From: Nitrososphaerota archaeon
GTDB lineage: Archaea > Thermoproteota > Nitrososphaeria > Nitrososphaerales > Gagatemarchaeaceae
Direction: 5' to 3'
NCBI GenBank assembly: GCA_029785825.1
Contig: JAFLYY010000002.1
Span: forward strand, 62,001-126,000
DNA length: 64,000 nt
Numbering within the stretch: position 1 is the stretch's first letter; every line of letters starts with the position of its first letter. The notes beneath the pieces are model-generated. The model made no database searches. It was not told where the DNA came from and saw only the letters and a list, made by a program, of their open reading frames with translations. This document shows positions 7 through 45,310 of this stretch, one piece after another. A program made the position numbers and the translations under genes.

Positions 7-1785
7 ATGATCCTAAAGACGAAGTACAGAAACAGTAGCGGTCAAACTGGCTGTTTCGCCGTTGAGGGCAAAAACGGCATGGCATTTGCTATACTCCCCA
101 CACCAGACTTGGAGTATTATGGGACCACAGTCAGTATGGTGGTCTATGAGAAGATAGACCCTCTCAGGCTGATTGCCTACATCAAGCAAGCTTGCAGACT
201 GTCGCCAGTAGACACTTTCTTGACTCTGTCTGATGGAGAGAAGAAGGAACGCACCAAGCTCAACGACACCTACGAAAACGTCATGACTGACCAAAACCGT
301 TTCATAAACGACTCGACCTACAGAAGCGACTACAACCAGTACAACTACAGTGAGGTCATAACCTTCAAACTACCCGGGTTCGATGTCTACGCCCTCAACA
401 TAACCTACCGCGCAAAGACCGACATGACTTCGATACCGAGCACAGAATCGGGAATCACAAGAGCAGTTCTTCTCAACCTCCCAGTGTATACCAACCTGAG
501 GCTCCCATTCAGCAGAGCACTCATATGCATAACTGACGAGCGGGCATTTCCACCAACGGCTGACAGGGAACGTCTCAAGGAAGAAACAGAGGCCCAAATA
601 CAAAGCAAACTCTGGCCAGTATTGACACAGTATTTCTCGAAATATGTCGTTCACAACGTCAGTCAATTCACGAAACTGGACGTCGTTGATAGGGCTGTTC
701 TCCTATCGTTCTCGCGCAGGCGTAACGGGTGGACTACTAATGACGGCCGTACGCTCTTGGACAGAGAGACTGACGAGTTCATCACCACGCTGTCTTTCAA
801 CGTCGACGTCAAGGGGATAAGCGAGAGGAGGAGGATCCAACGACTAGAGCTGGCGGTGATGCTAACCGAGTTCACCACCGACGAACTATTCATTGAAGAT
901 TCCAACTATACATCGAGACATCTGAAGCTGCTGAGACAGGTATACCCTCGCGCCATACTCATAATGGGGAAGGACTACCAGCAGATCGAGGTCCAGAACG
1001 TAATCTCTCAACTCAACCTGAGGAGTGCAACGCAATACATCACAGAGAACAACCTGAAACTCCCACGACCTCCTAGAACTGCCCGTGGATATACAATCCA
1101 CCGGTCGAAACACCGTTCAGGATACTCGTTCGCTGATGAGACACAAACCTTTTCTGACGCAAAGGACATAACCATCGATAACCTAATCAAGGTCGGAAGG
1201 AAGGACTCCGTGACAAAATACTCGGAACTCCTCGAGTCATTTCCAACAAAATACACAGTCACATCAGCAACTAACATCAAAGGCGGCGAGGCACTAGATG
1301 ACTTCATATCACGAGTAGAGGCAACCACCCAGGTAACAAACAAGGGACCCATGGCCGTGAAAGAGTTCCTCAAGTACGACTCCATATTCCTTACCATGCA
1401 CGACAACCCTGCCATCGCACCCCTAGTCTATCCCAACGACACGAGACTCGTTGTCATCGACAATGTTGATCGCCTGTTCGAGATAGCAATGTACCTTACA
1501 AAGAACGGCAAGGCCTATGTCTCACGCCTCGACCCATCAGACGAATTCGAGGCAATTACAGGCAAAAAACCATACAAGTTCTACAGTGGATACAGCAGTC
1601 TTAACGACCGCGCCAACATACTGTGGACACTCCTGCGCATCTATGCTGCAGCCAAGGACAAGAACGTGGCTTACCTACTCATGAGAGGAGTAGGGCAATC
1701 CAGCACCGAAGAATTCCCGGAATCCACAGAACTGGCACTCAAGATCGCCAGTCAAGACCTTCCGACGAATCAGAAAAGGAAGTGA
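7..1785 (+). CDS. Large protein, possibly rIIA-like (5' end may be cut by the window)
   Basis: The frame is open to the window edge, so the ATG at 7 may be internal and the true N-terminus may lie outside. No Shine-Dalgarno is visible before it. Residues about 180-200 read ITDERAFPPTADRERLKEET, which resembles the P-x-x-x-R-E-x-L region after the GHKL ATPase domain in phage rIIA/HSP90-type proteins. The ATPase N-box and glycine loops themselves are not visible in this part. The downstream gene starts 6 nt after the stop, so the two are probably co-transcribed. The rIIA assignment is inference from one motif; the gene call is solid. Confidence 0.8.
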   Translation: MILKTKYRNSSGQTGCFAVEGKNGMAFAILPTPDLEYYGTTVSMVVYEKIDPLRLIAYIKQACRLSPVDTFLTLSDGEKKERTKLNDTYENVMTDQNRFINDSTYRSDYNQYNYSEVITFKLPGFDVYALNITYRAKTDMTSIPSTESGITRAVLLNLPVYTNLRLPFSRALICITDERAFPPTADRERLKEETEAQIQSKLWPVLTQYFSKYVVHNVSQFTKLDVVDRAVLLSFSRRRNGWTTNDGRTLLDRETDEFITTLSFNVDVKGISERRRIQRLELAVMLTEFTTDELFIEDSNYTSRHLKLLRQVYPRAILIMGKDYQQIEVQNVISQLNLRSATQYITENNLKLPRPPRTARGYTIHRSKHRSGYSFADETQTFSDAKDITIDNLIKVGRKDSVTKYSELLESFPTKYTVTSATNIKGGEALDDFISRVEATTQVTNKGPMAVKEFLKYDSIFLTMHDNPAIAPLVYPNDTRLVVIDNVDRLFEIAMYLTKNGKAYVSRLDPSDEFEAITGKKPYKFYSGYSSLNDRANILWTLLRIYAAAKDKNVAYLLMRGVGQSSTEEFPESTELALKIASQDLPTNQKRK

Positions 1786-1790
1786 ATGAA

Positions 1791-2213
1791 ATGAGAAACT
1801 CACTAGAATTACTGAAGAAATACGAACCATTGATCAAGAAGATCGACGGAAGCAAAAGGAAGAAACGCCTTGTCTCCGTTGTACGAAAATTCCAACCAGA
1901 CAAGGAACAAATGAAAGCCGTAATCGCCGAACTCAAAGCAGACCCACTCATGGACCCCTTCGTCGCTATCACCAAGGTCAGAAAAGGCGTTACAAAAGAT
2001 GACTCACAGATTGTTATCAATCTAAGAGACAGTCGTGTTGTCAAGGCAAGCCAAAACGCCGCACTTGCAACCAATGCCAGTCAATCGGAAAACGCCACTG
2101 AAGCATACATCGAATGGCTAACATCACGGTCCTACCTCAGCAGAAATGTGGTAGAACAGCTTGAGACGCTTCAGTTTGTTGAAGAAGAACTAGGTACGAG
2201 CGAGCCAGACTAG
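1791..2213 (+). CDS. Hypothetical basic-to-acidic small protein
   Basis: A 140-residue protein starting at an ATG preceded by AGGAAG, 6 nt after the previous stop. The N-terminal half is lysine-rich and helical, with no motif I can name; the C-terminus is acidic (EEELGTSEPD). If the upstream gene is rIIA-like, an rIIB-type partner is imaginable, but I see no direct evidence. It is followed directly by a perfect inverted repeat. Confidence 0.8.
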   Translation: MRNSLELLKKYEPLIKKIDGSKRKKRLVSVVRKFQPDKEQMKAVIAELKADPLMDPFVAITKVRKGVTKDDSQIVINLRDSRVVKASQNAALATNASQSENATEAYIEWLTSRSYLSRNVVEQLETLQFVEEELGTSEPD

Positions 2214-8487: not shown

Positions 8488-10062
8488 ATGCCAAAGAAGA
8501 AATCAGATGAAAGAGAGGTTCCACTGACCGGAAATGAGGAATTTGATAGAATATCGAAGTTCCTCAGAGACACTACCACACTGGTCTCCATGAACTACAT
8601 GGGTCTTACTCAGAGGGATGCTATCAAGACTCTCTGGTGTGGCCTCCTGACCAAGGGGACTGTGCTGCTCTATGGGTCTCATGGGACCTACAAGACCAGT
8701 ATGTCAAAGTTCCTTGGGAAGCTGTTCACGAAGCCCATATACCGGGTGAAGTTTAGCGTCGACAGTGCTGAGCAACTGAGGTCGAGGCTGCATGTGCTTG
8801 CTGAAGAGCTATGTGTAGACGAGGAGATGTTGAAACGCAACCTTCTGGCTGGTATCGATCTTCAGTATGCCCAGTATGGGGGCAAAGTCGAAGTCATGGG
8901 TGTCGTTGATGCTATCAAGTACAAGATGAAGGGCGACGTTGAGCGCATCCCTCTTGACGTGTACATCAGGCAGGTGAACACTTTCTCAGAGCAGGAAGAT
9001 GTTGTCGGTTACGGCATCGACAATCCTCTCCTTCTGAAAGACGCTCCACCTCATATGGTGAAACGAAACTACATGGCAAGCGCTGACTTCGTCGTGCTCG
9101 ACGAGGTTTTCAAGAACCCAAGGCTCATCAGCATCCTCCACAACATGTTGAACGACCGGGAATACGATTCAGTCGTAGGCACCGGGCATGTTGAACCTGA
9201 GGCTATAATCCTACTCACTAACCCTCTCAACGATAACTACCAAAGCAACATCTCTCTCGTAGATTTCGCGAGTTTAGACCGATACATGTTTAGTGCCTCC
9301 GTGTCTTCGCCAACTAGTGCTGAGATACGCATAATGCAAACCAGGTTCAACTCACATGCTCCAATAGAGCCACTTCCCATAGAGGCAGTCTATGAGGCGC
9401 GTAAGCTCTTGAAAGAGGTCAAGGTCCCTGCAGAGATCCAGGCTTTCATTGAAGGATTGCTTTCGGCGATGTCGAAGTGTTACTTCAATGTAGAAGGCAA
9501 TACCAAGGCCGATGGGGCTGATGTCTTCGCAGTGGAGCATGAGTGTTCCCTCTGTAAGTTCGGCGGTGCTGCTGGCGAAGGCAATTGGTCCATATGTTCA
9601 AAGGCAAACGTCGCAAAGGTGCGCAGTAGTATAGCCATCACTAACGCGGTCAAGGTGAGTGCTTTCATAGAAGGGCGCCTGACTGCCAACGATGATGACG
9701 TACTGTTTGCTCTCAAGCACGCACTTCCCCACCGCATAAAGTGGAGCGCAGACTTCAAGGCCGACATCCTAAAGTCGACTGACGAAATCATCAAGCGATA
9801 CAACGAGCTCCTTGTCAACTTTGCAGACCAATTCAGCAGGATTGAAGGGTTCATCAAGTCGCGAGACATCGCAGAGGGCCTCAAGATCCGCAACGACAAC
9901 AAAGATGTTCCCGTTGTCATGGCCTTCCTCGATGAGTTCCTGGACCGGGTCAAAGAATCCGCGATGACGGATCGCGATACTGAGACACTTGAGCGGCTTG
10001 AGAAGAAGGTGGACATAAGTGGCGCACTCAAAACACTCGGACGTAAGCCAAGTAGTTCGTGA
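8488..10062 (+). CDS. MoxR-family AAA+ ATPase
   Basis: Residues about 60-71 are the P-loop (LLYGSHGTYKTS): the GxxG and KT are present but the usual Gly before Lys is Tyr. Walker B is FVVLDEVFKNP near 200, followed by LLTNPLND with the sensor-1 Asn, as in MoxR/RavA. An inserted Cys cluster (CSLCKFGG ... WSIC, about 352-371) may bind zinc. MoxR ATPases work with a VWA-domain partner, encoded here immediately downstream with a 1-nt gap, to remodel or activate protein complexes. The N-terminal MPKKKSDE is shared with the gene at 6803. Confidence 0.85.
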   Translation: MPKKKSDEREVPLTGNEEFDRISKFLRDTTTLVSMNYMGLTQRDAIKTLWCGLLTKGTVLLYGSHGTYKTSMSKFLGKLFTKPIYRVKFSVDSAEQLRSRLHVLAEELCVDEEMLKRNLLAGIDLQYAQYGGKVEVMGVVDAIKYKMKGDVERIPLDVYIRQVNTFSEQEDVVGYGIDNPLLLKDAPPHMVKRNYMASADFVVLDEVFKNPRLISILHNMLNDREYDSVVGTGHVEPEAIILLTNPLNDNYQSNISLVDFASLDRYMFSASVSSPTSAEIRIMQTRFNSHAPIEPLPIEAVYEARKLLKEVKVPAEIQAFIEGLLSAMSKCYFNVEGNTKADGADVFAVEHECSLCKFGGAAGEGNWSICSKANVAKVRSSIAITNAVKVSAFIEGRLTANDDDVLFALKHALPHRIKWSADFKADILKSTDEIIKRYNELLVNFADQFSRIEGFIKSRDIAEGLKIRNDNKDVPVVMAFLDEFLDRVKESAMTDRDTETLERLEKKVDISGALKTLGRKPSSS

Positions 10063-10063
10063 G

Positions 10064-11611
10064 ATGCAGGAGCGGATACGCCCCGCTCCTCCTCCCGTGG
10101 CTCATAAGGTGACCAAGATAAGCACTTTTGGGATTGACACCAAGCGAGAAGTAATGTATCTTCCCGAGTGGCATAACGCACCTGATATCTGGCCCTTCAT
10201 CCACGAGTTTGTTGTCCACGAGTACAATCACACCAGAATTTGCGGCATTCCGTACACCTACATAGAGGGGAAGCGTCTCGAAGCTGCAATAATGGCAGGG
10301 CTCAAGAACCCATATGACGGCAACGAGAAGTTGCCAAAGGGGGTTGCCGCGGACCTGCTCAACATAGTAGGAGACGCCGTCAACAACATCTTCATTCACG
10401 GCCAAAAGTTCGCCGGTCACACCTTCAACATGAGGGCGACCCAGGAATCTTGGGTAAAGCGCTTTCCCCCTACCAAACAGGACGATGGCGTTGGCAAGCA
10501 GGTGGATGGGTATTACATCCTGAACCTTGTGTTCCAGCACTTCTTCGGGGGCAAGATCCTCATCGACAAGCCAGTCTCAGGGCGTGTTGAGTTCAAGCAA
10601 CTCATTGACGACATAAAGGGACTGGTAGCCCAGGCACGCACAAATCCCGCCACCAAGGACACCCAGCTCGTGGTTGGTGCGGCGAAGATGATATGGGAAC
10701 TCTCTGACCACAACGACCAAGACAGAAAAGACCATTGCCTTGCGCCGCGCTCCGCTGAGGGAGACGAGCTCAAGAAGCTTGCAGAAATCGCGGTCGAGTT
10801 TGGCCTAGATGTCAAAGACCTTATCGATCTCGCAGAAAACCCTGATCTCACCAAACCCGAAGCAGAGAAACTGCTCGCCCAGGCCAGGAAGTCGAAGTCG
10901 GCCGAGATGATCTACAAGTCTCAGGTCGGGTTCAGGAACTTCGTAGGGGGTGCCGGCCAGCCAATATATGCGCCATCGAGCAAGCACTTCAGACCGAGCG
11001 ACAAGAACGTCTCCATTGAAAGTGTAGCCCTCTATCCCAACGATCCGAGGCGCTGGAGGACACCAACGAAGTACATTCTCACCAGCGTCCAGACCAAGTA
11101 CGAGAAGGAACTGGGGTTCAAGAAGGTAATCGGCATAGTCGACAATTCTGGGAGCACCAGCGATCTCTTCAAGGGAAGGATGGTACTCCTTCACGAGTTC
11201 GACGTGCTGGCATCTCTCTGCGGATTCGCCATCGACAACAGGCTCCCGATGGATGCGTATATCTTCAATGACAATGTGGTATCGCTCCGTGGGAAGCCAC
11301 AGGAACTGCTAACGAAAGCACTGGAATACACATCACACGGCGGCACCATACTCCGCTTGCCCTTGGAGCGCATCACCAACGAGAAGGATTGCTTGGTTGT
11401 CATCATCACAGACGGCGAAGTCAATACTGGTGATGTAAAGATGGTCACGAAGCTCACCAGCAGCAACAAGGTCATCGGGATGGTTGTTGACAAGAACTAC
11501 AGCGACAATGCGATGGTAACCACGCCAGTGAAGAACTTCATCCTCTACACCGCTAATCCGAGTGGTGGGCAGGCTGTGATCTTCAACGAGTTGAAGAACG
11601 CACTAGCATAA
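10064..11611 (+). CDS. VWA-domain partner of MoxR with HExxH-like motif
   Basis: Starts at the ATG one base after the MoxR stop. The N-terminal half contains VVHEYNHTR (about 50), which resembles the metal-binding pattern of DUF2201-type VWA proteins. The C-terminal VWA domain shows the MIDAS residues DNSGSTS near 360, a Thr in TSHGGT, and ITDGEV near 450. MoxR-VWA pairs act as chaperone-like machines for metal insertion or complex assembly; the target here is unknown. An intergenic hairpin follows. Confidence 0.85.
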   Translation: MQERIRPAPPPVAHKVTKISTFGIDTKREVMYLPEWHNAPDIWPFIHEFVVHEYNHTRICGIPYTYIEGKRLEAAIMAGLKNPYDGNEKLPKGVAADLLNIVGDAVNNIFIHGQKFAGHTFNMRATQESWVKRFPPTKQDDGVGKQVDGYYILNLVFQHFFGGKILIDKPVSGRVEFKQLIDDIKGLVAQARTNPATKDTQLVVGAAKMIWELSDHNDQDRKDHCLAPRSAEGDELKKLAEIAVEFGLDVKDLIDLAENPDLTKPEAEKLLAQARKSKSAEMIYKSQVGFRNFVGGAGQPIYAPSSKHFRPSDKNVSIESVALYPNDPRRWRTPTKYILTSVQTKYEKELGFKKVIGIVDNSGSTSDLFKGRMVLLHEFDVLASLCGFAIDNRLPMDAYIFNDNVVSLRGKPQELLTKALEYTSHGGTILRLPLERITNEKDCLVVIITDGEVNTGDVKMVTKLTSSNKVIGMVVDKNYSDNAMVTTPVKNFILYTANPSGGQAVIFNELKNALA

Positions 11612-38183: not shown

Positions 38184-38396
38184 ATGCCATGGCCAACGAT
38201 GCCCAAGCGGGCAACAGCTGAGGCCAAGTATGACAAAGGGCATGAAATCATGAACAAATCATGTTACCACTCTTGGAACGTCAGCATGCCAGCTCTTGCA
38301 ACGTCTGTCTGTCCTTACTACGGGCTGAAACACAGATGCAACCTCGACGAAGGGCACACAGGCAATCACCGATGCAAATGCCGAAAAGAAGACTGA
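38184..38396 (+). CDS. Cys/His-rich small protein
   Basis: The C-terminal half has CNLDEGHTGNHRCKC (about 51-65), a dense metal-binding pattern, and two further Cys. The start is uncertain: ATG 38184 or an ATG 22 codons later. It is the last gene before the structured gap. Confidence 0.6.
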   Translation: MPWPTMPKRATAEAKYDKGHEIMNKSCYHSWNVSMPALATSVCPYYGLKHRCNLDEGHTGNHRCKCRKED

Positions 38397-38434
38397 AATC
38401 CTAGCCAGCTATTATTTTCAAATGCTGGAGGGTG

Positions 38435-38479
38435 CATGCGGGCAAATCTATCTAGCTAAATTGCCCGCATGATTTTTCC
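38435..38479 (+). terminator. Intrinsic terminator
   Basis: CATGCGGGCAA (38435-38445) pairs perfectly with TTGCCCGCATG (38461-38471), with ATTTTTCC after it. It closes the long upstream transcript. Confidence 0.8.
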
Positions 38480-38945
38480 GGTACCTCCCTCTGGGACGGC
38501 ACCGATGCTTGTCCGTGGGCTTACTGGTCCCGGAATGTGCTAGCAGTTACTCCTGATGACTCCGACCCAACACGGTGCAAACCGCGACCTGGGCAACGGG
38601 GGCTTCTGGCGTCAAGCCAGAGAGTGACCAGCTGCTAGGCACTTAGCCTGCACTCATATGCTGTAGAGCAGCTCTACAGCAAGTGCAGGACACGATGGTC
38701 GAAATCATGGACTGAACAGGCGGGCAACAAGCCCACCAATTCGGTCCGCAGCCGCTGTTCTCAGGACAGCGGATGTCCCTTTGAAGCTGCGTAGCTAACC
38801 TCCTATTGGAGGGTGTTACGCAGTGGAGGGGTGATAGAGAAATGTACAGCGCACCAATCCAACCCAACCAAAAACGCTGTTCATTATCCATTGGCGCCTC
38901 GTCGCCAATGATCTGTGAAGTACATCTATACCAGGTTGATGTGCC
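38480..38945 (+). ncRNA. Candidate large structured RNA
   Basis: About 465 nt without a convincing ORF, in a block where genes otherwise touch. It contains a chain of strong stems: 38605-38621; 38647-38689 (8 bp perfect outer stem, 9 bp perfect inner stem); 38722-38734; 38752-38772 (7 bp); 38787-38823 (CTGCGTA/TACGCAG enclosing CCTCC/GGAGG); 38889-38910 (8 bp); 38922-38942. An upstream terminator and a downstream promoter bracket it. Strand, ends and function are not known; a replication origin is the alternative. I see no tRNA, SRP or RNase P signature. Confidence 0.55.
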
Positions 38946-38948
38946 CGC

Positions 38949-38954
38949 TTAAAA
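38949..38954 (+). promoter_or_regulatory. TATA-like box in a small hairpin
   Basis: CTTAAAAG sits in the loop of CCGC/GCGG (38945-38959), 27 nt before the GTG at 38976. Confidence 0.4.
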
Positions 38955-38975
38955 GGCGGTGATAGCTCATTCACA

Positions 38976-39521
38976 GTGATCTCCAACAAGAATTGCCGCA
39001 ACTGCGGCAAGTATACACCACATCGTACACTCTACGTACGGTCCCGTGTAGGCAAATCCCGCACTTGGCGGGAAGTGTTGACCATGTGCATGAATTGCCG
39101 CACGCCCTACCATATCATGCGGAGTGTCTACAAGGCGGCGAAGTATACCAACGACGAGAAGTTTGATGCGGTACTCCGCGAAGCGGCGAGCGGGTTAGAC
39201 TTCGAGACTCTTCACAGGCGTCTCACAGAGACGGGAAAGGAGTACACCGACAACGGCCTCACGGACGTCCTGAACTACCTGATGCAACACGGATTCATGA
39301 GTGAAGAAACGAAGGATTACACAACCGAGATCATTACCGGAATATCGGGTCGAAGCGAGCTAAAGAACCTCGCATCATGTAGCGCATGCGGCAAGGCAAA
39401 TTCTGTCATCAGCTTGTATTCATCATACCATCACAAACTTTTGGCAGTTGGCTCGCTGTGTATCAGTTGTGGTGACATAGACCAAAGCAGCATGCATGAC
39501 GAGGAATCACAACATCCATGA
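38976..39521 (+). CDS. Zinc protein with two Cys clusters
   Basis: GTG start. The N-terminus NCRNCGKYTPHRTLYVRSRVG with MCMNC (about 6-40) is a zinc ribbon similar in layout to those at 37858 and 44299. A second pair CSACGK (about 131) and CISCGD (about 163) frames the C-terminal ribbon; the middle is helical. Overlaps the HNH gene by 4 nt. Confidence 0.75.
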   Translation: MISNKNCRNCGKYTPHRTLYVRSRVGKSRTWREVLTMCMNCRTPYHIMRSVYKAAKYTNDEKFDAVLREAASGLDFETLHRRLTETGKEYTDNGLTDVLNYLMQHGFMSEETKDYTTEIITGISGRSELKNLASCSACGKANSVISLYSSYHHKLLAVGSLCISCGDIDQSSMHDEESQHP

Positions 39522-40821: not shown

Positions 40822-41343
40822 ATGAAACAGCACCAGCCTCACTACAAGTGTTCGGCAAGAGACGATGATTACCGCAGTAGAACTGATTGTACAACAACGA
40901 GAGAAATGAGAAACATGGCGAGAGAAGACATAGAACGGCTGAAGGGACATTTGCTGAAGATTGGCGGAGGCGGACCCAACAACAATGGGTTCGCCTACAA
41001 GGGATATGAGGAACAAATGGACAAGTTCCTCGAGAAAGAATTCAGACCGGGAGATGTTGATAAACTAATCACCAATGGTAAGTTGTTCACGCCAAAGAGC
41101 ACGACATTGAGAAAGGGAAGGCCCAACGGTTGCCACGGCAATGTGGCTAGGCTTGTGTCACGTTACCCTCAGAAGTACACAGCCTGGACCGGCATGTCCC
41201 TGGGTCCTGACCCGATATGGCGCTCCCACTCGTGGGCTATCAATAAGAATGGTGATGTGATAGAGACCACTGTACCACGAACTGCATACTACGGGTACCA
41301 GATGGACGAAGCTATGGTAGGACTTCTGTCAAAAGGATGGTAA
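40822..41343 (+). CDS. Papain-like fold protein (second)
   Basis: GCHGNVARLV (about 101-110) places a Cys before a helix; RSHSWAINKNGDVIETT (about 133-149) gives His on a strand and Asn/Asp after, then RTAYYGY. This Cys-His-Asn order fits a papain-like fold. The first 31 residues are poorly protein-like, so ATG 40915 may be the true start. Compare 30948. Confidence 0.65.
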   Translation: MKQHQPHYKCSARDDDYRSRTDCTTTREMRNMAREDIERLKGHLLKIGGGGPNNNGFAYKGYEEQMDKFLEKEFRPGDVDKLITNGKLFTPKSTTLRKGRPNGCHGNVARLVSRYPQKYTAWTGMSLGPDPIWRSHSWAINKNGDVIETTVPRTAYYGYQMDEAMVGLLSKGW

Positions 41344-44583: not shown

Positions 44584-44612
44584 ACGGCGGCAACCAACAG
44601 TCGACAGAGACG

Positions 44613-45143
44613 ATGGTGAAAAATATGACCACACCATACTCTACAACCGACGATTTTGCACACGCCCGCACATACGCAAACGCCGAAGCACCCTACACCC
44701 CGAGAATGTCCCATGAAACACCATGGGACCTCTTCTCCCAAACAACCACACCACCCAGAGACCACACCACAAACCCCATACCCACCCCACCAGCCTGCCC
44801 TAGCAATGCGGACAACTCCTTGTCTACCCCCAATCCCAAGCCCGACACTATACACGTTTTACAAGTGTATACCAATCCCGTCAGAGCACCGCCCCGACAC
44901 CCCAACCAAAACCAAGCCTTCAAATCCAAATCCCACTCTTGCTCCACATCCCTCTACCAACCCAAGCTTCACTCCAACCACACCCCAACAGTACTCCTCC
45001 CTCACCCCCCAATTATCGGTGCACCCCACCCCCAACACACATACACAATAGTCGAAGTCCCAACCCCCTCCGCTCGCTTATCGACGAACTACGAACGACC
45101 CACAAAGAGAGGTGTCGGAGAACGGCGTCCAGCCGGTCTCTGA
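44613..45143 (+). CDS. Pro/Thr-rich low-complexity protein
   Basis: Of the three open forward frames here this one starts most like a protein (MVKNMTTPYSTTDDFAHART), then becomes Pro/Thr/Asn/His-rich. It may be a disordered or surface protein, or simply an open frame because T and G are rare on this strand. Confidence is limited by composition. Confidence 0.4.
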   Translation: MVKNMTTPYSTTDDFAHARTYANAEAPYTPRMSHETPWDLFSQTTTPPRDHTTNPIPTPPACPSNADNSLSTPNPKPDTIHVLQVYTNPVRAPPRHPNQNQAFKSKSHSCSTSLYQPKLHSNHTPTVLLPHPPIIGAPHPQHTYTIVEVPTPSARLSTNYERPTKRGVGERRPAGL

Positions 45144-45310
45144 CTACGATAACCACCCCTACCACTACTACCCCCACTACCACCACACAACCCACCACTA
45201 CCACCACCACACCAATCAAATACCAACAATACACCAACCAACAACACTAGTACACCCACCACTGACAATAGCTGAACTATACCACCACTACCACCCCAGT
45301 ACTACCAATG
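44740..45310. repeat. C/A-rich, G-poor low-complexity tract
   Basis: The + strand is composed almost only of C, A and some T, with imperfect CCA/CAC repeats (densest 45150-45300). Several forward frames are open as a by-product, including a His/Tyr-rich one from 45112. Confidence 0.75.

Follow-up and report, generated by a model that had tools for sequence, protein, structure and literature searches.

A hammerhead-like RNA with a hairpin-interrupted core in Nitrososphaeria mobile elements and related loci

We analysed a 64,000-nucleotide (nt) stretch of a Nitrososphaerota archaeon contig (hereafter the window; G000:C2:62001–126000, with positions in window numbering unless a contig is named) and found that one of its intergenic blocks almost certainly holds a genuine conserved RNA. 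Sequence comparison shows that its helices covary and that four of the five members contain, correctly ordered, all the elements that make up a hammerhead core, namely stem I, CUGANGA, stem II (G10.1–C11.1), GAA, stem III (A15.1–U16.1), H17 and stem I again. We consider it probable that the RNA is a cis-acting, self-cleaving ribozyme of the hammerhead type, with type I topology, two hairpins between A9 and G10.1 and a stem III bent by a kink-turn (k-turn).

Folding, homologues and covariation

The block (38397–38975) lies between an open reading frame (ORF) ending at 38396 and another starting at 38976. An earlier note on this DNA had described about 465 nt here as lacking a good ORF and had proposed a large structured RNA, to be recognized by excess folding over shuffled sequence and by covariation in homologues. 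The gap indeed holds no convincing ORF, the longest stop-to-stop runs being 60 codons (+ strand) and 101 codons (− strand), and both signs of a structured RNA were found. The predicted fold of 38397–38985 has a free energy of −255.6 kcal/mol, compared with −197.0 ± 7.6 kcal/mol for 100 dinucleotide shuffles (z = −7.8). Across the 13 kb from 33 to 46 kb, scanned on both strands, the top-ranked folding segments lie at 38601–38900 on the + strand (z = −6.4 and −7.0), which folds better than the − strand at the same place (z = −4.3 and −4.4). The two hairpins that the note had named are exact: a nested one (38647–38654/38682–38689, 8 bp, enclosing 38659–38668/38672–38681, 10 bp) and CTGCGTA/TACGCAG around CCTCC/GGAGG (38786–38795/38815–38824 enclosing 38799–38803/38808–38812). 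As for the terminator said to precede the RNA, an 11-bp hairpin (38435–38471) followed by ATTTTT is present at 38435–38478 (+), but its loop is too long for it to have been listed by a simple terminator scan; this unconserved hairpin and its T run are probably either the 3′ end of the upstream transcript or a 5′ peripheral hairpin. The conserved RNA, delimited by folding, homologues and covariation, spans about 38537–38842 (+) and not the whole block. The third-strongest 200-nt folder in the same 13 kb, 40901–41100 (+; z = −5.4), lies within a coding ORF (40822–41343).

Neither the window RNA nor its homologues match any family in Rfam 15, hammerhead models included, at the gathering score or at E values up to 10. 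Relatives were sought at the DNA level in phages, plasmids and 45 family genomes, and viral contigs were scanned by protein-anchored searches; neither approach gave a match. A profile of three paralogous proteins of about 750 amino acids from the host element picked out seven further genomes of the order and class that carry related elements, and a folding scan of the gaps between genes in these elements singled out G264:C6:19106–19443, in which shared motifs were recognized on reading. Used as an independent check, a covariance model built from window positions 38775–38831 alone had a sole significant match in 674 kb, G264:C6:19329–19381 (L045:19329–19381; E = 4.4e-5). Refined models, made from two and then four sequences and run on 400 genomes of the class, added G264:C14:23083–23135 and G256:C57:30022–30079, and a refined model with laxer filters found G252:C1:426742–426795. 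The total is five members in four Nitrososphaeria genomes, the window's included, with three other genomes carrying the RNA; the archaeal affiliation foreseen by the earlier note therefore holds. Members score 36.8–78.4 bits, and the best non-member scores 15.3 bits. A strict motif pattern run over 84,980 genomes matched only contigs of G264 (Thaumarchaeota archaeon Centralia_MAG_53) and G256 (Nitrososphaeria archaeon DRTY7.bin_36). Pattern matches in two viral contigs were dismissed on inspection, as they lie inside a coding frame, and a stricter pattern gave zero matches.

Compensatory changes are abundant. In the 3′ domain, the alignment of all five sequences has 19 pairs, with 97.8% of cells paired and 10 of the 19 pairs changed on both sides; none of 500 shuffles reached any of these measures, and partners slid by 1–3 columns paired in 42–58% of cells. 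Within its 10-bp helix, the G–U and C–G pairs are fixed in place and the middle six pairs vary freely. Stems I–III of the core, in the four intact members, have 12 pairs (97.9% paired), of which 9 are double-changed, including all four of stem I, compared with at most 45% paired in slid controls. The core alignment was also run without G252 and with the degenerate G264:C14 copy. A 226-codon open frame crosses the RNA in G252 (L076, approximately 1500–1850, reverse strand); coding does not explain the conservation, because frames are broken in the window and in G264.

Mobile elements need replication origins, transfer origins or attachment sites, and the block does contain some near-perfect palindromes (38659–38681), which could act as DNA-level inverted repeats, with folding as a by-product. 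That explanation is very improbable. It is largely refuted by the conserved G–U pairs, which can form on one strand only (columns 12–54 and 20–46 of the 3′ domain alignment); in addition, the + strand folds more strongly, the RNA is always sense to the next gene, and iterons, which the earlier note would have taken to favour an origin, were looked for in the block and not found, weak two-copy repeats being all that it holds.

The hammerhead-type core

All core features lie on the + strand. The 5′ strand of stem I is CUC (38550–38552), pairing with 38837–38839; these three Watson–Crick pairs occur in the window, G264:C6, G256 and G252, and each is double-changed. In the same order, the longer stem I strands read ACUC/GAGA (with one mismatch), CCCC/GGGG, CUCU/AGAG and UCCC/GGGA. 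Next comes CUGAUGA (38553–38559), which sequence comparison equates with C3–A9; the four members have CUGAUGA, CUGAUGA, CUGACGA and CUGAAGA, with N7 being U, U, C and A. Stem II begins with GACCA (38626–38630, paired with 38696–38700), where G38626 corresponds to G10.1; the G10.1–C11.1 pair is present in all, and the next two pairs covary. The GAA that follows (38701–38703; G12, A13 and A14) is invariant in all five members and leads into stem III (5′ strand, 38704–38708), which opens with an invariant A–U pair between A38704 (15.1) and U38835 (16.1) and continues with three covarying pairs. H17 is A, U, A and C in the four members, and never G. Covariation supports the three helices I, II and III, and N7 and H17 vary at exactly the positions that are variable in hammerheads.

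The idea of a hammerhead was formed on the window, G264 and G256. The member in G252 was detected by the 3′ domain alone and then showed its own CUGANGA variant, GAA, H17 = C and matching stems; its intact core is therefore a passed prediction. A permissive descriptor of the core, running from stem I through H17 and back to stem I, fits all four intact members and 0–1 of 6,000 shuffles of each, with no fit on the reverse strand; in 1.55 Mb it fits three times elsewhere. For the G256 core, the minimum-free-energy structure is the hammerhead fold itself, and in the other cores that fold lies within 0.2–2.4 kcal/mol of the minimum. We also considered a box C/D reading of UGAUGA and dropped it, since N7 is variable and the partner strand reads GAA instead of CUGA. 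Taken on its own, the core is very probably of the hammerhead type.

This pattern bears on the suggestion, made in the earlier note, of an archaeal analogue of GOLLD and ROOL. The RNA would then be a discrete, stable large non-coding RNA of the GOLLD, ROOL or OLE kind, acting as a particle or ribonucleoprotein, and its likeness to a hammerhead would be coincidental. The window's copy, with its roughly 400–550 nt, many stems and mobile-element setting, resembles such RNAs, and a k-turn is found in OLE RNAs too (PMC9723947), but the conserved part of the homologues is short (about 150–290 nt, with cores of about 150–180 nt), the bulk of the window's copy is copy-specific and no large-RNA family in Rfam matches. 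Together with the fit of the descriptor to every intact member and to at most 1 in 6,000 shuffles, this leaves the GOLLD-like account unsupported, and we judge it improbable.

Interrupted core, k-turn and predicted cleavage

Ordinary hammerheads have G10.1 immediately after A9. Here that continuity fails in every intact member: the two positions are 66, 57, 77 and 52 nt apart (window, G264, G256 and G252), with two hairpins abutting stem II in between. In the window these are Pb (CUCCG.../...CGGGG; 38560–38601), which appears in forced and free folds, and Pm (38602–38625), likewise placed by folding between Pb and stem II, whose GCUC...GGGU ends are kept in G264, G256 and G252. A classical hammerhead with stem II right after CUGANGA was tried and rejected, as no G10.1–C11.1 pair is possible there; the pair exists only past the two hairpins. 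Because continuity from A9 to G10.1 is a defining feature of hammerheads, we class the RNA as hammerhead-like and not as an ordinary hammerhead.

The distal part of stem III (38777–38830) consists of a C-helix (38777–38779/38828–38830), the 10-bp helix (38786–38795/38815–38824), a UAA/GU loop and a hairpin (38799–38812). Between the two helices, UUU-GAA (38780–38785) faces GGA (38825–38827), which covariation and k-turn rules (PMC5061560) identify as a standard k-turn. In the four members, the bulges are UUU, GUU, GUU and GCU, each followed by GAA opposite GGA, with G·A and A·G pairs, 3b·3n = A·G and a −1 pair that is C–G in three members and U·G in G252. K-turns of this class need Mg2+ but no protein to fold, and they often let a long arm dock back (PMC5061560).

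Other parts are specific to the window's copy, including the nested 8 + 10 bp hairpin inside stem II (38647–38689), which is absent from the homologues, and two hairpins seen in the sequence of the stem III 5′ strand (38709–38772). Furthermore, GUGCUAGCAGU (38537–38547) is strongly predicted to form an 11-bp helix with 38631–38642 in the stem II loop, and this helix is a possible stem I–stem II tertiary contact in the window's copy. It recalls the pseudoknots that join stems I and II in some 40% of hammerheads (PMC3088659).

All five copies of the RNA are sense-oriented and lie 37–260 nt ahead of the next ORF. Such a position would also suit a structural or regulatory leader, that is, a non-cleaving fold that is ribozyme-derived or merely hammerhead-like and that now binds a protein (L7Ae or a protein of the element) or acts as a ligand switch. 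The conserved k-turn and UAA/GU loop exceed what a hammerhead needs, the core insertion may block catalysis, and the same zinc-ribbon gene lies downstream in the window and in G252. However, the downstream genes differ in G264 (both copies) and G256, and CUGANGA, GAA, A15.1–U16.1 and H17 are preserved exactly. Because only N7 and H17 vary in this exact core, selection for cleavage is expected, not selection for a leader, which we consider unlikely.

Several points weigh against self-cleavage. The intact members number only four, and their core alignment was made by hand from excised pieces. For the full 589-nt window RNA, a fold lacking stem I is better by 8 kcal/mol; nearest-neighbour rules ignore the hammerhead core, the k-turn and the pseudoknot. 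The G264:C14 copy (L066) has CUGAUGG, is mismatched both in stem I and in the long helix, and looks degenerate, with a broken core; it is located close to where a 23S rRNA gene ends (3′ end) and shares a small upstream gene (69% identity) with the C6 copy. No member is matched by the Rfam hammerhead models, and we know of no hammerhead with helices between A9 and G10.1. The core insertions on record are of one or two nt, are mostly harmful and usually slow cleavage (PMC3088659), and the insertion seen here could abolish it. Ordinary hammerheads have no need of the k-turn and UAA/GU loop that are so strongly conserved in stem III here, and the RNA may therefore have another function.

If the RNA is a type I hammerhead, it would be entered and left via stem I and would fold around a hammerhead active site. 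By structural analogy, the predicted cleavage step follows A38836, the H17 position (38836–38837), and natural cleavage at this bond is fairly likely. A polycistronic transcript would then be cut between A38836 and G38837, so that the upstream message would terminate in a structured 3′ end (2′,3′-cyclic phosphate), and giving the downstream message, which runs from the zinc-ribbon gene (38976–39521) through an HNH gene and onward, a new 5′-OH end. The k-turn might turn the end of stem III back towards the enlarged core and so brace it, possibly together with L7Ae, and the 11-bp helix that joins the 5′ flank to the stem II loop might replace the usual stem I–stem II contact in the window's copy. 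A 36-codon ORF (38842–38952) begins 5 nt past the predicted cut, and its message, if translated, would be nearly leaderless after cleavage. Transcript processing by hammerheads in prophages has been proposed by Perreault et al. (PMC3088659).

Host element and comparison with known systems

The zinc-ribbon gene (38976–39521, +) has no Pfam or PHROG match; over its length it is a homologue of the gene that comes after the RNA in G252, a distant genome (27% identity over 178 amino acids, E = 5e-12). Farther downstream, the HNH gene encodes a 129-amino-acid HNH/endonuclease VII-like protein. It prompted us to consider an IscB/TnpB guide RNA, which was rejected as this protein is not IscB; group I and II introns, RNase P, signal recognition particle RNA, and transfer or transfer-messenger RNA were rejected for want of a match.

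The host element is approximately 100 kb long, with its genes on one strand (G000:C2, approximately 4.8–107 kb; window 1–45000). Its genes encode a TraG/VirD4-type coupling protein with an intein (L005:6452–10612), topoisomerase IA, AAA proteins and the three paralogous proteins of about 750 amino acids, which we read as being of the GHKL-ATPase type and which have no Pfam match. The element resembles those reported from Thaumarchaeota as integrative-conjugative or cryptic elements (PMC6563490). It also carries a stand-alone N-terminal ATP-binding domain of PPDK/PEP synthase (PF01326; 16316–17233) and a 530-amino-acid protein (10019–11611) without relatives in 250 genomes of the order. A long, near-perfect intergenic inverted repeat with arms of about 20 nt surrounds TTTTCGACGTAACTTTC (2214–2262). 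Two other gaps of the element (L005:13239–13668 and L005:18588–18899) have strong folds on either strand (z as low as −7.3 and −5.4), with sequence unrelated to the ribozyme-like RNA. An extreme strand-skewed, low-complexity ACC/CCAA stretch (44600–45300), followed by G-rich sequence, lies at the apparent right end of the element.

A literature search of incomplete coverage turned up no hammerheads in Thaumarchaeota and none with helices inserted in the core, and to our knowledge such a core-interrupted hammerhead has not been reported before. We lean slightly towards an active natural hammerhead with a five-way junction, in which a two-hairpin domain splits the core and a k-turn in stem III braces it, that is confined to Nitrososphaeria mobile elements and related loci and is possibly dependent on L7Ae. 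The hammerhead core has so far been treated as compact, tolerating insertions of one or two nt only. If our reading is true, a larger junction can form the frame of the active site, hammerhead searches that require a continuous A9–G10.1 miss members, and archaeal mobile elements process messages by ribozyme, with self-cleavage separating the upstream transcript from the zinc-ribbon gene message. The predicted cut is exact to one phosphodiester bond, and the k-turn makes a protein-assisted ribozyme, via archaeal L7Ae, a concrete possibility.

Among known RNAs, the closest comparison is with type I hammerheads (RF00163 and relatives; PMC3088659), which share C3–A9, G10.1–C11.1, G12–A13–A14, A15.1–U16.1, H17 and the order of parts, as well as a stem I that joins the 5′ and 3′ ends, a location between genes in a mobile element and, in the window's copy, a possible stem I–stem II helix. 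In contrast to these, the RNA described here has two hairpins (52–77 nt) between A9 and G10.1, which create a five-way junction, and a stem III with a k-turn, a 10-bp helix and a UAA/GU loop, and it has no Rfam match. The non-circularly permuted hammerheads (SGC and CSG; PMC10085705) likewise place a hammerhead core in an architecture missed by older models, but there the order of blocks is altered, whereas the present RNA keeps the classical order and has an interrupted core strand. The k-turn has the three-nt bulge, G·A and A·G pairs, 3b·3n = A·G and −1 C–G pair (U·G in G252) of the standard Kt-7 class (PMC5061560), although it lies in stem III of a ribozyme-like RNA and its first NC-helix pair after 3b·3n is G·U. 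Finally, the window's copy is ornate and hundreds of nt long, as are GOLLD, ROOL and OLE RNAs, and shares a phage or mobile-element setting with GOLLD and ROOL and a k-turn with OLE, but it matches none of them in sequence or structure and is distinguished by a far smaller conserved core with a ribozyme-type motif.
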